Below, in pieces: positions 28,720 through 39,951 of a DNA stretch of 64,000 bases. Position 1 is the stretch's first letter. Each line of letters starts with the position of its first letter. The stretch is from Actinomadura syzygii (GTDB taxonomy: Bacteria; Actinomycetota; Actinomycetes; Streptosporangiales; Streptosporangiaceae). The DNA lies in NCBI RefSeq assembly GCF_008085905.1, contig NZ_VSFF01000008.1:62001-126000 (forward strand), in the 5' to 3' direction. The notes under the pieces were generated by a model. That model was not told where the DNA came from. It searched no databases and worked only from the letters and a program-made list of their open reading frames with translations. Both the position numbers and the translations under genes were made by a program.

Positions 28720-29259
28720 ATGGCGGTACGAGAGGGAACACACGAACTCGGGCCGGACGACGGGCGGCTGCTGATCAGGACGGGCCGGAGCGGCCTCGGC
28801 CGCCGCGCGGGCCACGACCTCACCATCGAGGCCACCCGCTGGACGGCGGAGGTCGAGGCCCGCGAGCCCCTGTCAGCGTCGTCGGTCGCGGTGACCGTCG
28901 AGGTGGACGGCCTGGAGGTCAAGGACGGGTCCGGCGGCGTGAAGCCGCTGACCGACCAGGACCGCGCGGAGATCGGGAAGAACCTCCGCTCGGTGCTGGA
29001 CGTCCGGCGGTATCCGCGCATCACGTTCGCGTCCACCCGGATCGACGACGCCGGGGAGCGGATCGAGGGCGACCTGACGATCATGGGCCGGGTGAAACCC
29101 GTGCAGGTCAGCGCCGCCCTGGAGGGTGATGACCGGGTGCGGGGCGGGGTGGCCGTCCAGCAGTCGCGGTGGGGGATCAAGCCGTACTCGGCGTTCTTCG
29201 GCGCGCTCAGGCTGGCCGACGACGTCGAGGTCGAGTTCGACGTCCGCCTTCCGGGCTAG
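28720..29259 (+). CDS. YceI family protein
   Basis: A 179-residue lipocalin-like beta-barrel protein: AGHDLTIEATRWTAEVEA, then SSVAVTVEVDGLEVKDG, and YPRITFASTRI. These are the lines of the YceI family, which binds isoprenoid or other hydrophobic ligands. No signal peptide is visible, so this copy is probably cytoplasmic. Its stop overlaps the stop of the convergent glycosylation operon by two bases. Confidence 0.87.
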   Translation: MAVREGTHELGPDDGRLLIRTGRSGLGRRAGHDLTIEATRWTAEVEAREPLSASSVAVTVEVDGLEVKDGSGGVKPLTDQDRAEIGKNLRSVLDVRRYPRITFASTRIDDAGERIEGDLTIMGRVKPVQVSAALEGDDRVRGGVAVQQSRWGIKPYSAFFGALRLADDVEVEFDVRLPG

Positions 29260-30026
29260 CGTCGGGCGCGGGCGGCGCGCGTGAACTGGTCGTCCAGGCT
29301 GCGCGGGAAGGGCAGCATGCGGTGCATGTCCCGCCAGGGCGCGAACTGCCGGACGGCGTTGAACCCCGCCGCCGTGACGACGCGCTCCACGTTCGGCCCC
29401 GGCGCGCACGCGGGATACACGTCCAGGTGCGCGATCCGGGCGGGAAGCCAGGCGGGCCGCACCGGCGACACCAGCGTCATCGGCGGCCGGACCCGTTCGG
29501 CGGACGCCATGTCCAGCGCGTAGGCGAGGAGTTCCCGCGTCTCCGCGTCGGGCCCGCTGTGCACGATGAGCCACCCGGCGACGTCGACCGGCTCCGCCGG
29601 GGGATCGGCCAGAGTCAGCGGCGTGACCTCCGCCGAGACGCGGCGCAGGTAGGCGTCATGGGCGGGGTCCAGCTCCTCCAGGACGAACGTCCGGTCGAAG
29701 CGCGGCGGGACGGCGGGCAGCAGCGGCGCGTAGGCGTCCCAGCGCAGCAGCCGCGCCAGATGCGTGACCCGCGCGCTGGGCGGGGCCGCGGCGTCCAGCC
29801 CGCCCTTCAACCCGGCCGGGAAGGCGTCGACGATCACCTCGCGGACGTCGCCGGGCAGGTCGGCGCCGGGGCGCACGACCCGCCAGCCGCCGGTGACGCG
29901 CGGGTCGGCCGCGAACGGCGAGTCCGTCACGGCGGTGACGGGGCCGTCCAGCCGGAGCGTGCGCAGCGCCGCCCGGAGCCGGGTCAGATGCCCGAGGCCG
30001 TCGCCGGACACATGGCAGACGATCAC
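29256..30026 (-). CDS. MurG/GT-B-like protein of unknown substrate
   Basis: A 256-residue protein beginning VIVCHVSGDGLGHLTRLRA. The Gly-x-Gly-His-x-x-Arg pattern resembles the N-terminal domain of GT-B-fold glycosyltransferases such as MurG. The C-terminal part contains AGFNAVRQFAPW and PFPRSLDDQFTRA, reminiscent of the family's acceptor/donor loop (asparagine followed by a P-R-x-x-D-x-Q segment). At 256 residues it is shorter than a full GT-B enzyme. GTG 30026 overlaps the stop of the GT4 gene by four bases. It is the last gene of a six-gene operon, and the assignment as a glycosyltransferase is tentative. Confidence 0.6.
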   Translation of the reverse strand: MIVCHVSGDGLGHLTRLRAALRTLRLDGPVTAVTDSPFAADPRVTGGWRVVRPGADLPGDVREVIVDAFPAGLKGGLDAAAPPSARVTHLARLLRWDAYAPLLPAVPPRFDRTFVLEELDPAHDAYLRRVSAEVTPLTLADPPAEPVDVAGWLIVHSGPDAETRELLAYALDMASAERVRPPMTLVSPVRPAWLPARIAHLDVYPACAPGPNVERVVTAAGFNAVRQFAPWRDMHRMLPFPRSLDDQFTRAARARR

Positions 30027-31153
30027 CGCGCCGCGTCGAGGGCATCGAGGACGCCGAGGTACCCGGCGGTCTCGGCGGCCGGGGTGAAGTCGCGGCGGAT
30101 CCGTTCCGCGCCCGCCGTGCCGAGCTTCGCCAGCTCGGCGGCGTCCGCGCGGGCGGCGCGGTCGATCGCGGCCCGGCAGGCGTGCGCGTCCCCGGCGGGG
30201 AACGTGAAGCCGATGTCGTCGTCGGCGAGGTCGGCGAGCCCGCCCGCGTCCGAGGCGAGCAGCGGGACGCCGAGCGCCGCCGCCTCCAGCGCGACGTTCG
30301 GCATCCCGTCGTAGAAGGACGGCAGCGCGACCAGGTCGCAGCTCGCGTAGACGGCGGGGAGGTCGTAGCGGTCCAGGAACGGCAGGAACGAGTGCGGGAC
30401 GTCGGCGCCGCGCGCGGCGAGCCACTCCGTCACCTGCTCCTCGACCTCGCCGACGAGCAGCAGGTGGAAGTCGTCCGCGCGGCGGGACGCGGCGAGCGCG
30501 TCCAGGAGGAAGCCGACGCCCTTCTTCACCTTGAGCTGCCCGATGATCCCGATCGTGCGGCGGCCCTCGCGGACGTGCTCGTCCCGCCACGCGCGGGCGC
30601 GCTCACGCTCGGACGGCAGGACCTGCCACTGCGCCGTGTCCACGCTGTTCGCGACGAACGCGACCGGGACGCCCGGAGCGAGCGCGGCGACCAGCGGCGC
30701 GTGCGAGCGGGCGACGACGCACACCCGCGACGAGGCGCGCAGCGCGTCCGCCAGCACCCCGCGCCGCCGCATCGAGAAGGCGCCGACGTCGATGTCGTTG
30801 CCTCGTAGCAGCGTCACGAGCGGCGCGTCCAGCAGCGCGGCGAGGACGGGCGCGGCGAGCGTCGCGTACACGCCGCCGAACGCGACGACATGGGTGTAGC
30901 CGGTGAGGTTCTCGGCGGTGATCGTCGTCCAGAGGCGGCGCAGGGCGTGCTCGGAGTCGTCGCCGAGCGGGGCGGTGACCAGCCGTCCGCCGTGCTCGCG
31001 GGTGACGCCCCACGGGCGGGCGCGGCGGGTCAGGTGCGCGACGTCGACCTCGACCCCGGCGCCGCGCAGGCCCCGCACGATCCGGTCGCAGGACTGCGCC
31101 ATGCCGCCCCGGCTCGGCGGGTAGTGCCCGGTGATCCACAGGACCCGGTGCAT
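30023..31153 (-). CDS. GT4-family glycosyltransferase
   Basis: A 376-residue GT-B enzyme. The N-terminal domain starts VLWITGHYPPSRGGMAQ, the usual glycine-rich acceptor-side start. The C-terminal donor domain has IGIIGQLKVKKGVGFLLDAL and LPSFYDGMPNVALEAAALGVPLLASDAGG, whose E-x7-E motif is the retaining GT4 nucleotide-sugar site. It would add a sugar from an NDP-sugar to a lipid or glycan. ATG 31153 overlaps the TGA of the cysteine-rich gene by one base (TGATG). Confidence 0.9.
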   Translation of the reverse strand: MHRVLWITGHYPPSRGGMAQSCDRIVRGLRGAGVEVDVAHLTRRARPWGVTREHGGRLVTAPLGDDSEHALRRLWTTITAENLTGYTHVVAFGGVYATLAAPVLAALLDAPLVTLLRGNDIDVGAFSMRRRGVLADALRASSRVCVVARSHAPLVAALAPGVPVAFVANSVDTAQWQVLPSERERARAWRDEHVREGRRTIGIIGQLKVKKGVGFLLDALAASRRADDFHLLLVGEVEEQVTEWLAARGADVPHSFLPFLDRYDLPAVYASCDLVALPSFYDGMPNVALEAAALGVPLLASDAGGLADLADDDIGFTFPAGDAHACRAAIDRAARADAAELAKLGTAGAERIRRDFTPAAETAGYLGVLDALDAAR

Positions 31154-31506
31154 CAGCTGTCCACGAAGCCGGTGTCGTCGTCCGATCCCCAGTCGCCGCC
31201 CTGCGCGTAGTCGTCGCCGGGGTTGAACGCGCCCCGGTCGTACTGGTCGAACGACGAGTACCAGGCGGCGTCCTGGTAGGCGTGCGAGCTGCTCTGGTAG
31301 TAGTGCCGCCGCCGGCCGCGCGCCCAGGCCGGGTCGTGCGGGTCCTGCGAGCCGTAGCCCTGCGCGGCCAGGCACTCCGGGCAGACGCCGGACGGCGCGG
31401 CGTGCTCGGCGCAGACGGGCCGCCCGCACTGCCCGCAGGAGGCGGCGGCCTGCCGTCCGCAGCGTCCGAGGACGAAGAAGCCGGTGGTCACGGTGCAGCG
31501 GTTCAC
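31153..31506 (-). CDS. Small cysteine-rich, putative zinc-finger protein
   Basis: A 117-residue protein with no assigned family that I recognise. Residues about 16-45 hold RCGRQ, SCGQCGRPVCAEH and VCPEC, a pattern like a B-box or zinc-ribbon site with six or more cysteines and a histidine. The rest is hydrophilic, rich in Tyr, Ser, Asp and Gln, and probably disordered. GTG 31506 overlaps the upstream stop by four bases, and its TGA overlaps the GT4 start. It sits in the middle of a glycosylation operon, where a zinc-bound scaffold or regulatory role is possible but unproven. Confidence 0.65.
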   Translation of the reverse strand: MNRCTVTTGFFVLGRCGRQAAASCGQCGRPVCAEHAAPSGVCPECLAAQGYGSQDPHDPAWARGRRRHYYQSSSHAYQDAAWYSSFDQYDRGAFNPGDDYAQGGDWGSDDDTGFVDS

Positions 31507-32228
31507 GTGGTCCTCCTCGCGGCCGTGCCCGGCGGCGTCCACCGGAACGGCTCCGTCGACACCTGCAGGATGCGGTCGATCGCCCGGTCGACGAGCGGCT
31601 CGCGGAACTTGCCGCTGGCCCGGACGACCAGCCGGCCGCCCTGCTTGACCTGCACCCGGACCGAGGCGGGCGGCGGCGTCCCGGGACGCCGGACGGCCGC
31701 GTCCTTGGCGAACCGCCGCGTCACCTGGACGAGCTGCACGGTCTTCCGCTTCGTCTTGATCTTGACCTTGCCGCTGGAGCCGCGCTGGCGCCGCCTGCGG
31801 AACCGCACCCGGTCGGTGACCGCGAGTTCGAGCACGCTGCCGTCCCGCAGTTCGGCCCGCATCCGGAGCCACGGGTCCAGCGCGTACCACTGGTGCATCC
31901 CGAGGACCGGCGGCCGGACGGGCATCTCGACCTCCGGCCCCTTCTTCTCCGGCAGCTCGGCGCCGCGCATGTCCGCCGCGACGGACAGCACCCCGTCCGG
32001 CGGCATGTCGGACGCGAGGATCCGCAGCATCGGCACCAGCGCGCCCGGGACGCGCTCGTCCAGCCGCCACTTGCGCCGCCGGATCTCGGTCGTGTGCCGG
32101 GCGAGGCTCTGGATCACCGGCTCCCAGTCGTCCCGCCGCAGCGAGACCGTGAAGCCCTTCTCCAGGGTGAGCGCCCGGTGCAGCGGATGGAACCGCTGGA
32201 TGGCGGCCTTCTGCTTACGCCAGAACAT
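31503..32228 (-). CDS. Unknown protein in the glycosylation operon
   Basis: A 241-residue protein that I do not recognise. It is basic, without signal peptide or membrane segment. Notable stretches are SLRRDDWEPVIQSLARHTTEIRRRKWRLDE, the strands MRAELRDGSVLELAVTDRVRFRRRR and a lysine-rich turn KVKIKTKRKT. The C-terminal part (VRVQVKQGGRLVVRASGKFREPLVDRAIDRILQ) looks like beta strands followed by a helix. It lies ten bases downstream of a GT4 gene and overlaps the cysteine-rich gene. Its conserved place in an operon is the only functional hint. Confidence 0.6.
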   Translation of the reverse strand: MFWRKQKAAIQRFHPLHRALTLEKGFTVSLRRDDWEPVIQSLARHTTEIRRRKWRLDERVPGALVPMLRILASDMPPDGVLSVAADMRGAELPEKKGPEVEMPVRPPVLGMHQWYALDPWLRMRAELRDGSVLELAVTDRVRFRRRRQRGSSGKVKIKTKRKTVQLVQVTRRFAKDAAVRRPGTPPPASVRVQVKQGGRLVVRASGKFREPLVDRAIDRILQVSTEPFRWTPPGTAARRTT

Positions 32229-32238
32229 GACGAACCAC

Positions 32239-33432
32239 CTATCGCTCTCGGTCCGGAGGCGTGCTCGTGTCGTGCACCGTGTCGTAGACCGCGGCCAGCT
32301 CGGCGCGCGACCGCGCCCAGGTCAGGTCCGCCGCGATGTGCGCCCGGCCGCGCCGTCCCATCGCGGCGGCCTCGGCCGGGTACTCCAGCAGGACGCGGAC
32401 GGCCCGCGCCAGCTCCGCCGGGCGGTCGGCCGGGACGAGCCGCCCGTGCTCCCCGTCCGCCATCAGCTCGCGGACCGCCGGAAGGTCGGACGCCACGACC
32501 GGCACCCCGGCGGCCATCGACTCGATGACCTTCAGCGGCGCGCAGCCCTGGTCGAGGTTGCGGGCGCAGCCGGTCAGCGGCGCCACCGACACCTCGGCGT
32601 GCGCGAGCCACGCGGCGACCTCGTGGTGCGGCAGCGTGAACCGCCAGTCGACCCGGTCGGCGACCCCGATCCGCTCGGCCGCGCGGCGCAGCGGCTTCGC
32701 CCGCCGCTCCGGGACCGACGCGCACACGACGAGCCGCAGGTCCGGCAGGTCGGCGAGCCGCGCGAACGCGCGCAGCAGGACGTCGAGGCCCTGCCAGGGC
32801 TGGAGCGCGCCGACGTAGACGAGGTAGCGCTCGGGCGCGTCCGGCGGGCGCTGCGACGGCTGCGGGACGTCCGCCCCGTTCGGGACGAGGTGGACCTTCG
32901 CGTCCGGCACCCCGAGGCCGCGGACCGCCGCGCCGATCACCCGCGACGGGACGACGACCGCGTCGCTGCGCTCCAGGCAGTGCCGCTCCAGCTCGCGGAC
33001 CTTGGCGAGCGTGGACGGCGCCGCCCACGGCCAGGTGTGCGCCATCTCGATCGACGGCAGCCCGTTGACCTCGTAGACGACCTTGTGGCGGCGCCTGCGG
33101 CGGGGGCCGTCCGCGACGGCGGGCAGCGCGCTCCACGGGTCGCGGACGTGGCAGACCTCCAGCGTGTCGAGATGCGGCTCCAGATGGCCCGCGACCCACG
33201 CGGAGAACGCCTCGGCCCGGTCGATCAGGTTCGGCACCGGCTCGTCGAAGCGGGCGATCTCGCGCGTCCCCTCGCGCTGGTAGCGGGGCAGGTCGCCGCC
33301 GCCGATCGCGCAGAGCAGCCCGCCGTCGAAGCGGGCGAAGAGCTCGTCCGCCATCTGCGCGATGTGGACCGCCGACCCCTTGCTGGACGGGAACCGGTCG
33401 AACGCGACGTAGGCGGCGCGATGCCGCATCAT
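32239..33432 (-). CDS. GT4-family glycosyltransferase
   Basis: A 397-residue GT-B enzyme. The N-terminal domain starts AAYVAFDRFPSSKGSAVHI. HKVVYEVNGLPS and VPSRVIGAAV follow in the inter-domain region. The donor domain has YLVYVGALQPWQGLDVLLRAF and CAPLKVIESMAAGVPVVASDLPA, the GT4 donor-site region. ATG 33432 or the next in-frame ATG 33429 both overlap the epimerase stop, so coupling is clear. It is the second gene of the operon. Confidence 0.88.
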   Translation of the reverse strand: MMRHRAAYVAFDRFPSSKGSAVHIAQMADELFARFDGGLLCAIGGGDLPRYQREGTREIARFDEPVPNLIDRAEAFSAWVAGHLEPHLDTLEVCHVRDPWSALPAVADGPRRRRRHKVVYEVNGLPSIEMAHTWPWAAPSTLAKVRELERHCLERSDAVVVPSRVIGAAVRGLGVPDAKVHLVPNGADVPQPSQRPPDAPERYLVYVGALQPWQGLDVLLRAFARLADLPDLRLVVCASVPERRAKPLRRAAERIGVADRVDWRFTLPHHEVAAWLAHAEVSVAPLTGCARNLDQGCAPLKVIESMAAGVPVVASDLPAVRELMADGEHGRLVPADRPAELARAVRVLLEYPAEAAAMGRRGRAHIAADLTWARSRAELAAVYDTVHDTSTPPDRER

Positions 33433-34433
33433 CCGACCCGCACCCCCTCGTCGGCGCTGTCCACCCGTGGAGGACGGCCGCTGCTGAGCGCGCGGTGCCA
33501 GGCGATCTGGTCGGCGAGGCCGTCCGCGAGGCCGGTGGCGGCCGTCCAGCCGAGGAGGCGGCGGGCGCGTCCGGTGTCGGCCCAGGTGCGGGCGGCGTCC
33601 CCGGCGACCGGGGTCTCCCGCCGAATCTCGGCGCGGACGCCGAGCAGGCCGGTGAGCGTCCCGATGGCGGCGCGGAGCGTGACCGGCTCGTGGTGGCCGA
33701 CGTTGACCGCGACGCCGGGCGGCAGGTCCGCGGCCGCCGCGAGGAGCGTCGCGGACACGACGTCGCCGACGTGCGTGAACGCCCGCGAGCTGCGGCCGTC
33801 GCCGAACACCGGCAGCGGACGGCCGTCGAGCGCTGCCTCCGCGAACCGGTGGAACGCCATGTCGGGCCGCTGCCGGGGGCCGTAGACGGAGAAGTATCTG
33901 AGCAGGACGGTCCGGAGCCCGTCCCGCGCGGCGTCCCGGGCGAGGCGCTCCACCTCGACCTTGCTGGCCGCGTACGGGCTCGCCGGATCGAGGGGGTCGT
34001 CCTCGCGGTTCGGCCGCCCGCCCGCCGACCCGTAGACCGACGAGCTGGACGCGACGACCACCTTCGGCCGGAGCCCCGCCGGGCGGTCCGCGCACGCCGC
34101 GAGGAGCCGCCGGGTCGCGACGACGTTGTCCCGCCAGGCCGCCGCCCGGCCCTCGCCCCACGAGCAGCGCACACCGGGACGTCCGGCGAGGTGGACGACG
34201 ACGTCGGCGGCGGCGACGGCGTCCAGGTCGTCTGTCGCCAGGTCGAGTTCGGCGGCGGCGACGCCGGGCCGCGACGCCGTCCCGGCCCACGTCCGCCGCG
34301 CCGTCTCCGGCGCGAGGGACCGTTCCGGCGCGTCGACGGCGAGCACCTCGTGCCCCGCGCCCGACAGCGCGTCGACCACATGGCTTCCGATGAACCCCGC
34401 CGCCCCAGTAACAACCACCCGCACCCGGGGCAC
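33429..34433 (-). CDS. NAD-dependent nucleotide-sugar epimerase/dehydratase (SDR family)
   Basis: A 334-residue extended short-chain dehydrogenase. VTGAAGFIGSH is the NAD site, SSSSVYG carries the catalytic Ser/Thr position, and SPYAASKVEVE is the YxxxK motif. RYFSVYGPRQRPDMAFHRF and SRAFTHVGDVV are typical of UDP-glucose/UDP-glucuronate 4-epimerases. It probably supplies the sugar donor used by the downstream glycosyltransferases. GTG 34433 is 44 bases downstream of the marR stop, with a small hairpin between. Confidence 0.9.
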   Translation of the reverse strand: MPRVRVVVTGAAGFIGSHVVDALSGAGHEVLAVDAPERSLAPETARRTWAGTASRPGVAAAELDLATDDLDAVAAADVVVHLAGRPGVRCSWGEGRAAAWRDNVVATRRLLAACADRPAGLRPKVVVASSSSVYGSAGGRPNREDDPLDPASPYAASKVEVERLARDAARDGLRTVLLRYFSVYGPRQRPDMAFHRFAEAALDGRPLPVFGDGRSSRAFTHVGDVVSATLLAAAADLPPGVAVNVGHHEPVTLRAAIGTLTGLLGVRAEIRRETPVAGDAARTWADTGRARRLLGWTAATGLADGLADQIAWHRALSSGRPPRVDSADEGVRVG

Positions 34434-34459
34434 CTTATCCGGATCGGCACATCCTGGAC

Positions 34460-34475
34460 AGGGACACGAGTCCCT
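34460..34475 (-). terminator. Small hairpin after the marR gene
   Basis: AGGGAC / GTCCCT with a four-base loop lies two bases downstream of the marR stop codon and 27 bases upstream of the epimerase start. It is only six pairs long, so it may attenuate rather than stop transcription into the glycosylation operon. Confidence 0.4.
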
Positions 34476-34477
34476 GA

Positions 34478-34942
34478 TCAGCCGGTATGCGGCTCCGTCG
34501 CGTCCCAGTCGCGCTGGGACCGCGTGACGTGCGCCAGGGCGGCCTTGAACGTCCGGAAGACGTCGTCGCCGAGGTCGTCGCGGTGGCGGTCCTCGATCCC
34601 GGCGAGGATGGCGCGGGCCTTGCCGATCTCGTCCAGGCCGTCGTCGGTCGGGACGACGAGCTTGGCGCGCCGGTCCTTCGGGTCAGCCTCGCGCCGGACG
34701 TAGCCGAGCCGTTCGAGCTCGTCCACGATGACGGTCACGATCTGCTTGTGCTGCCCGGAGCGCCGCGCCAGCTCGGTCGCCCGCGCGCCGGTCGGCGGCA
34801 GGATGGCGAGCACCGTGCCGTGCCGCGGGCGCACGTCGGGGTGGCCCTGCTCGGCGAGGCGGGTGAACAGCTCGTCCTGGAGGGCGCGTCCCAGCCGTCC
34901 GATCAGCAGTCCGAGGTCCGGTTCCTGTTCGGCGTCGGCCAT
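34478..34942 (-). CDS. MarR family transcriptional regulator
   Basis: A 154-residue winged-helix regulator. The DNA-binding part runs from ARATELARRSGQHKQIVTVIVDELERLGYVRREADPKDRRAKLVVPTDDG, with the MarR wing signature DPKDRRAKLV. It probably dimerises through its terminal helices and binds a dyad in its own promoter. The start at 34942 uses GGGAGG in the right arm of an unusual long inverted repeat. It lies downstream of an ABC-F gene on the same strand, which could be its partner target; the ligand is unknown. Confidence 0.9.
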   Translation of the reverse strand: MADAEQEPDLGLLIGRLGRALQDELFTRLAEQGHPDVRPRHGTVLAILPPTGARATELARRSGQHKQIVTVIVDELERLGYVRREADPKDRRAKLVVPTDDGLDEIGKARAILAGIEDRHRDDLGDDVFRTFKAALAHVTRSQRDWDATEPHTG

Positions 34943-34943
34943 G

Positions 34944-35007
34944 GCGGCCTCCCGGTATTGGTCAGAGTTATTGACTTTCTAACTTCATGACCATACCGGG
35001 AGGCCGC
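34944..35007 (-). promoter_or_regulatory. Long inverted repeat containing the marR promoter region and ribosome site
   Basis: GCGGCCTCCCGGTAT (34944-34958) and ATACCGGGAGGCCGC (34993-35007) are perfect 15-base arms. A further TGGTCA / TGACC continues the pairing inward after one unpaired base. The inner stretch of about 23 bases is AT-rich for this genome and holds a smaller dyad (AGTTA-N9-TAACT), a plausible MarR operator or promoter. The arm nearer marR contains its Shine-Dalgarno. Ten bases separate the other arm from the ABC-F stop. Confidence 0.65.
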
Positions 35008-35018
35008 TCGGCACCGGC

Positions 35019-39951
<4,933 letters not shown>

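Follow-up and report, generated by a model that had tools for sequence, protein, structure and literature searches.

The window analysed here is a stretch of 64,000 nucleotides from the 9.7-Mb genome of Actinomadura syzygii; the genes described for it below lie on its minus strand, and positions in it are numbered along the whole stretch. It contains six closely packed genes, whose open reading frames (ORFs), as read from the sequence, follow one another in the order EPI–GT4a–UNK–CYS–GT4b–MURG from position 34424 down to 29256. EPI (33429-34424) codes for a nucleotide-sugar epimerase of the extended short-chain dehydrogenase/reductase (SDR) type, GT4a (32239-33432) and GT4b (30023-31153) for family 4 glycosyltransferases, and MURG (29256-30026) for a compact protein of 256 amino acids with a predicted GT-B fold. 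Between the two glycosyltransferase genes lie UNK (31503-32228), whose product of 241 amino acids represents a new family, and CYS (31153-31506), coding for a protein of 117 amino acids with a zinc-finger-like domain and an acidic tail. Adjacent genes overlap by 4 nt at the EPI/GT4a (33432/33429), UNK/CYS (31506/31503) and GT4b/MURG (30026/30023) junctions and by 1 nt between CYS and GT4b (31153), and a 10-nt gap separates GT4a from UNK (32239/32228). These four overlaps and one gap agree with the six-gene, near-touching operon placed at 29256-34433 by the first-pass annotation, the location of which stands; only the start of EPI probably has to be moved from 34433 to 34424. As developed below, UNK and CYS, the two members that had not been recognised, are very probably working parts of this cassette.

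A genome scan with UNK yielded 42 loci, 30 from Actinomadura, 1 from Spirillospora, 3 from Actinoallomurus and 8 from Actinoplanes. GT4a, UNK, CYS, GT4b and MURG were present in the same order and on the same strand in all 42, MURG being visible only in its first part in L049 and L051, where a contig end is close by, and extra genes sitting within this order in L061 and L063. EPI precedes these five core genes in 40 of the 42 loci and is missing in L040 and L047, so that of the six-gene unit initially described the five core genes are constant and EPI is usual but dispensable. Twenty further loci, whose overlap with the 42 was not checked, all contained the core, 18 of them with EPI. The 4-nt overlap of UNK and CYS was found in 37 of the 41 loci in which both ORFs were called, and its recurrence, like that of the gene order, is more than chance. 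Among the fetched loci the nearest named relative is Actinomadura chibensis (L042), with 90-96% identity for EPI, GT4a, CYS, GT4b and MURG, against 79% for UNK. As to the extra genes, a gene of Actinoallomurus purpureus (L063, 10200-10823) for a lipoprotein-like protein of 207 amino acids without Pfam match lies between GT4b and MURG, its ends overlapping both neighbours, and a gap of similar size occurs at the same site in L061; a second gene of L063 (6493-7893), located between GT4a and UNK, codes for a protein of 466 amino acids that looks ATPase-like by reading.

The cassette occurs in some soil actinobacteria, and its distribution is patchy. UNK was detected in 28 of 35 congeners and in none of 23 other relatives, in 40 of 298 family genomes, our own among them, in 20 of 250 genomes of the Actinoplanes family and in three of 394 genomes of the class, the same three that contain MURG. 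At the level of the phylum it was present in two of 336 genomes, one of them our own and the other (G1072) from another class, of which G1072 was the only carrier among the 27 genomes searched. The G1072 locus (L152) shows the same core order, with identities of 46% for GT4a, 35% for UNK, 35% for CYS, 49% for GT4b and 40% for MURG, and here too UNK and CYS overlap by 4 nt. Its upstream SDR gene is merely ~30% like EPI, and since EPI is also missing from several other cassettes, we define the core as five genes. This core is present in two classes of Actinomycetota and may be either old or transferred as a block. UNK as a whole gave no match among plasmids or viral contigs.

The cassette genes are also lost jointly, with one decayed exception (G008, see below). 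In a search for GT4a and MURG in 17 genomes, with a threshold of E<=1e-60 for GT4a, five of the seven congeners without UNK also lacked both genes. MURG is reduced to a remnant of 33 residues beside YceI in one genome without UNK (G021). Apart from G008, the co-occurrence check proposed with the first-pass annotation was passed, and the gene order and joint loss support the idea of one coupled glycosylation unit that includes both proteins.

The first-pass annotation had suggested a zinc finger in the cysteine-rich CYS protein, and the alignment of 37 orthologues argues in its favour: C4, C16, C24, C27, C32, H35, C42 and C45 are invariant in all 37, and all eight are retained in the distant genome. 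CYS thus appears to have a zinc-finger-like domain with a full set of conserved Cys/His ligands. No Pfam family matched it above cut-off. ZnF_RZ was hit by 16 of the 37 members (best E-value 0.0011), a match that we treat as chance or general resemblance; zf-B_box is absent from the matches listed for the 37 members, and an ANCHR-like B-box matched a single one (0.094). Searched against 197 genomes of the class, a CYS profile matched in 10; apart from its own gene, the nine matches are weak. Two of the nine are rhomboid proteases by Pfam and one (L147) has no Pfam match. In rhomboid proteases of actinobacteria the profile thus weakly detected the N-terminal zinc finger (E-values from 4e-5 to 9e-4), but CYS differs from it by its first ligand pair, lacks the membrane domain and has an acidic tail instead.

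This tail is variable in sequence, with a charge of -7 to -11 over the last 35 residues in the 37 sequences and of -10 in the distant genome. It ends in VDS in all 37 orthologues and in WDS in the distant genome. A conserved end behind a variable tail, of which even the final Ser is retained in the distant protein, might mean that CYS is itself the acceptor or carrier, the glycan being built on the Tyr/Trp/Asp-rich tail presented by UNK, in a form of cytoplasmic protein glycosylation that would be unfamiliar. The lack of a flippase or polymerase gene in the cassette would fit as well. However, the conserved end could equally be a docking signal, and we regard CYS as a quite unlikely acceptor.

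UNK had been described as basic, and its net charge is indeed about +28, with a range of +24 to +35 in 41 sequences. Sequence searches of Pfam, NCBIfam and the PDB gave nothing for it, so that both proteins singled out as unrecognised remain without a known family above cut-off in the libraries searched. Structure prediction, as had been proposed, gave a confident model (pLDDT 91.0, pTM 0.86) with long strands at residues 108-126, 132-149 and 155-172, but no secure fold match: Foldseek found nothing at E<=0.001 in the PDB, a viral library gave no match at this threshold either, and among the PDB rows obtained with VIA-align, none of which is secure, the best was actin capping protein (Z 7.8). 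Arg140, Arg142, Arg144, Lys154, Lys156, Lys158 and Lys160 are invariant in all 41 sequences and Lys162 is nearly so; the distant UNK keeps all eight positions at 27-32% identity to 14 others aligned. As every second side chain of a strand points to the same side, these residues should form a cationic ladder on the long beta-strands of the model. An N-terminal helix (MFWRKQ) was considered as a membrane anchor and was dropped as a general trait because it is missing in the distant homologue.

Such a ladder, unchanged even in the distant UNK, might also bind the substrate itself, be it an acidic glycan, a lipid phosphate or a pyrophosphate, CYS then being an independent zinc protein and a mere neighbour. 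The UNK model weakly resembles START/PRELID lipid-binding folds, a lead that is itself weak (Z 4.0-5.0), as capping protein outscores these rows. Two further observations speak against direct substrate binding: in one genome (G280) UNK and CYS are duplicated together in tandem, both CYS copies being complete with ligands and VDS end, and the invariant end of the acidic CYS tail calls for something to bind to. We therefore consider substrate binding by UNK alone rather unlikely, even though the mirror-tree analysis described below is in its favour. A strongly basic protein next to a zinc-finger-like one could likewise be taken for a nucleic-acid-binding protein and its zinc-responsive partner, regulating the operon or some other process outside glycan assembly. 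Yet no DNA- or RNA-binding family was matched and regulators in the middle of an operon are unusual, which makes this role a very unlikely one.

The positive ladder, the negative tail, the translational coupling and the joint duplication lead us to consider UNK and CYS as a pair, and the gene order and joint loss tie this pair to the glycosyltransferases. We therefore tentatively favour a reading in which the operon serves one glycoconjugate, with UNK and CYS assisting the glycosyltransferases as an accessory module paired by charge. The analysis shows the gene order and its conservation, the joint loss, the invariant residues, the promoter pattern and the predicted folds of UNK and MURG; every enzyme activity, zinc, the binding of UNK to CYS and the role of both are what we infer. 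The operon would be read from a leaderless-type promoter and the glycoconjugate made in the cytoplasm. EPI, where present, would provide a donor such as UDP-galacturonate, the two GT4 enzymes would add sugars with retention, and MURG would add a further sugar or hydrolyse a nucleotide-sugar. CYS would fold round zinc, the Arg/Lys ladder on the beta-strands of UNK would bind the acidic tail of CYS, and the pair would hold or orient acceptor and enzymes. The product is likely to be a uronate-containing glycoconjugate where EPI is present. As no transporter or polymerase lies within the cassette, export, if any, must be done elsewhere. In its most specific form, the proposal makes UNK-CYS a new kind of accessory device for glycosyltransferases, spreading over two classes within the five-gene cassette; the ladder would clamp the acidic tail, and the C-terminal (V/W)DS would be a docking site or might even make CYS the protein carrier of the glycan. 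This version is possible but doubtful.

Several observations weigh against the charge-paired module. In a mirror-tree analysis of 37 loci, the distances of all five core proteins correlated (0.91-0.96), and the residual correlation of UNK with CYS was 0.04, i.e. no specific signal, while residuals of 0.40 and 0.32 were found for GT4a-UNK and GT4a-CYS. UNK is the fastest-evolving of the five, with the largest mean distance, despite its invariant ladder, and the charge of the distant UNK is merely +11.9. EPI is missing from two of the 42 cassettes and from four others, and uronate is therefore not a fixed ingredient. Finally, G008 lacks UNK and CYS but has kept MURG, preceded by a chimeric gene that joins GT4a to GT4b in frame (L095:7173-8408), the first part of which is 69-90% GT4a-like in 30-residue windows and the end 83-87% GT4b-like. 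A deletion took out the UNK-CYS pair along with part of each glycosyltransferase, and this was the single case found of glycosyltransferase sequence retained without the pair.

The enzymes around the UNK-CYS pair were classified by profile and structure comparisons. Pfam assigned families, all of soluble enzymes, to EPI, GT4a and GT4b and none to UNK, CYS and MURG, and NCBIfam gave nothing above cut-off for EPI, UNK, CYS, GT4b and MURG. The epimerase call is upheld by the Pfam Epimerase profile (5e-51) and by the closest solved structures in a PDB sequence comparison, MoeE5 (6kv9, 4.9e-56) and 6zl6 (2.9e-48). We take MoeE5 to be the UDP-glucuronate 4-epimerase of moenomycin synthesis and 6zl6 to be that of Bacillus cereus, 6zl6 being named only 'epimerase domain-containing protein' in the PDB table. 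EPI is thus probably a UDP-glucuronate 4-epimerase. It retains the residue aligned with Arg185 of this enzyme, which holds the carboxylate of UDP-GalA according to PMC12338863, but has Ser in place of Thr178.

The two family 4 glycosyltransferases called in the first pass were recovered by profiles above cut-off, Glyco_trans_1_4 for GT4a (1.5e-28) and Glycos_transf_1 for GT4b (6.8e-25), together with conserved C-terminal acidic residues, invariant in 17 of 17 sequences each (Glu304 in GT4a, Asp282 and Glu290 in GT4b). The solved structure nearest to GT4a by sequence is 7qsg, a D-inositol 3-phosphate glycosyltransferase (1.1e-15). The relation of EPI to MoeE5, a moenomycin enzyme, and a GT4b score above the cut-off of the Pfam 'GT4-conflict' profile (37.0 vs 26 bits) might suggest that a specialised metabolite is what the cassette glycosylates, or that it is part of a conflict or defence system. 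However, general GT4 profiles score far higher for GT4b (88 bits), PADLOC defence families gave no match at E<=0.01 for any of the six proteins, and the presence of UNK in most congeners would rather fit a trait basic to the genus, so that we give this explanation only a slight probability.

MURG had been called MurG-like, which applies to its predicted fold but not to its family. The model (pLDDT 89.7) is a small but complete two-domain GT-B protein aligned over its whole length, with Z-scores of 12-15 among the matches listed, including PseG (15.3), GT1 enzymes (~14) and MurG (3s2u, 13.1); the best Foldseek E-value was 3.1e-5. Identity to these PseG-, GT1- and MurG-type enzymes is nevertheless only 10-16%, and no Pfam family matched MURG, a single one of 25 members reaching Glyco_trans_1_3 at 0.079; MURG therefore belongs to the GT-B fold by prediction and is claimed by no MurG/GT28 profile. 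PseG is a UDP-sugar hydrolase, and MURG may therefore be either a hydrolase or a transferase. A literature search on a PseG/MurG link found nothing.

The region in front of EPI carries a candidate promoter. In 51 of 52 loci a TANNNT hexamer precedes an in-frame start codon of EPI by 6-8 nt, compared with 2% in shuffles; 11 of 63 loci had been excluded (EPI motif not found or too near an end), and some of the loci used are not independent, as L054 and L098 come from a single genome. In the sole miss, L066, TAGAGT precedes the GTG by eye. In the window this -10-like hexamer is TAAGGT (34432-34437), and a -35-like TGTCC lies 18 nt before it (34456-34460). TGTCC occurs 18-20 nt upstream of the hexamer in 25 of 31 Actinomadura-type loci and in none of five Actinoallomurus-type and 16 Actinoplanes loci. 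From conservation only, we propose a leaderless-type promoter in front of EPI; a promoter scanner using the sigma-70 consensus found none in 29000-34700. EPI therefore probably starts at GTG 34424, 7 nt behind the hexamer, as the upstream GTG overlaps the hexamer itself. In cassettes without EPI the same hexamer-start arrangement stands at GT4a in five of six, the exception being L152. The first four codons behind the hexamer in L040 and L047 are still EPI-like by eye, which looks like the trace of a deletion that removed EPI but spared its start. In L152 (8900-8965) a TACGCT hexamer is seen by eye 6 nt ahead of the start codon of UNK, which would fit a separate leaderless promoter for UNK-CYS-GT4b-MURG.

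A perfect inverted repeat, AGGGAC-N4-GTCCCT (34460-34475), overlaps the -35-like element and is a possible operator. Further upstream on the same strand (34478-36662) are the gene of a MarR-type regulator and that of an ABC-F protein, which resembles the ribosomal-protection type but stays below cut-off; the MarR gene was matched in only one of the 42 loci (L042).

Word searches returned no published description of the cassette or its neighbours, a result limited to these searches. The imp, wps and gsf clusters of Actinoplanes missouriensis are exopolysaccharide clusters described in PMC12691653 and PMC13390465; like the cassette they are actinobacterial glycosyltransferase clusters, and imp has three GT4 enzymes (PMC12691653). 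The word 'epimerase' appears in neither main text and 'zinc' not in that of PMC13390465. These clusters encode a flippase, a polymerase or other membrane proteins, whereas family assignments and hydropathy reveal no flippase or polymerase membrane protein of a Wzx/Wzy- or GtrA-dependent system in the cassette. Among its proteins only GT4b has a hydropathy peak above 1.6 (1.97), which we take to be the GT-B domain core. Unlike imp or wps, the cassette thus does not amount to a full Wzx/Wzy-type cluster. While operons of glycosyltransferases are nothing unusual, this one firmly combines them with two families unrecognised by any library searched, and it does so in Actinomadura, in Actinoplanes and in a further class of the phylum, forming a small, defined and testable system. 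If the charge clamp between UNK and CYS is true, it would be an unfamiliar way of organising glycosyltransferases.

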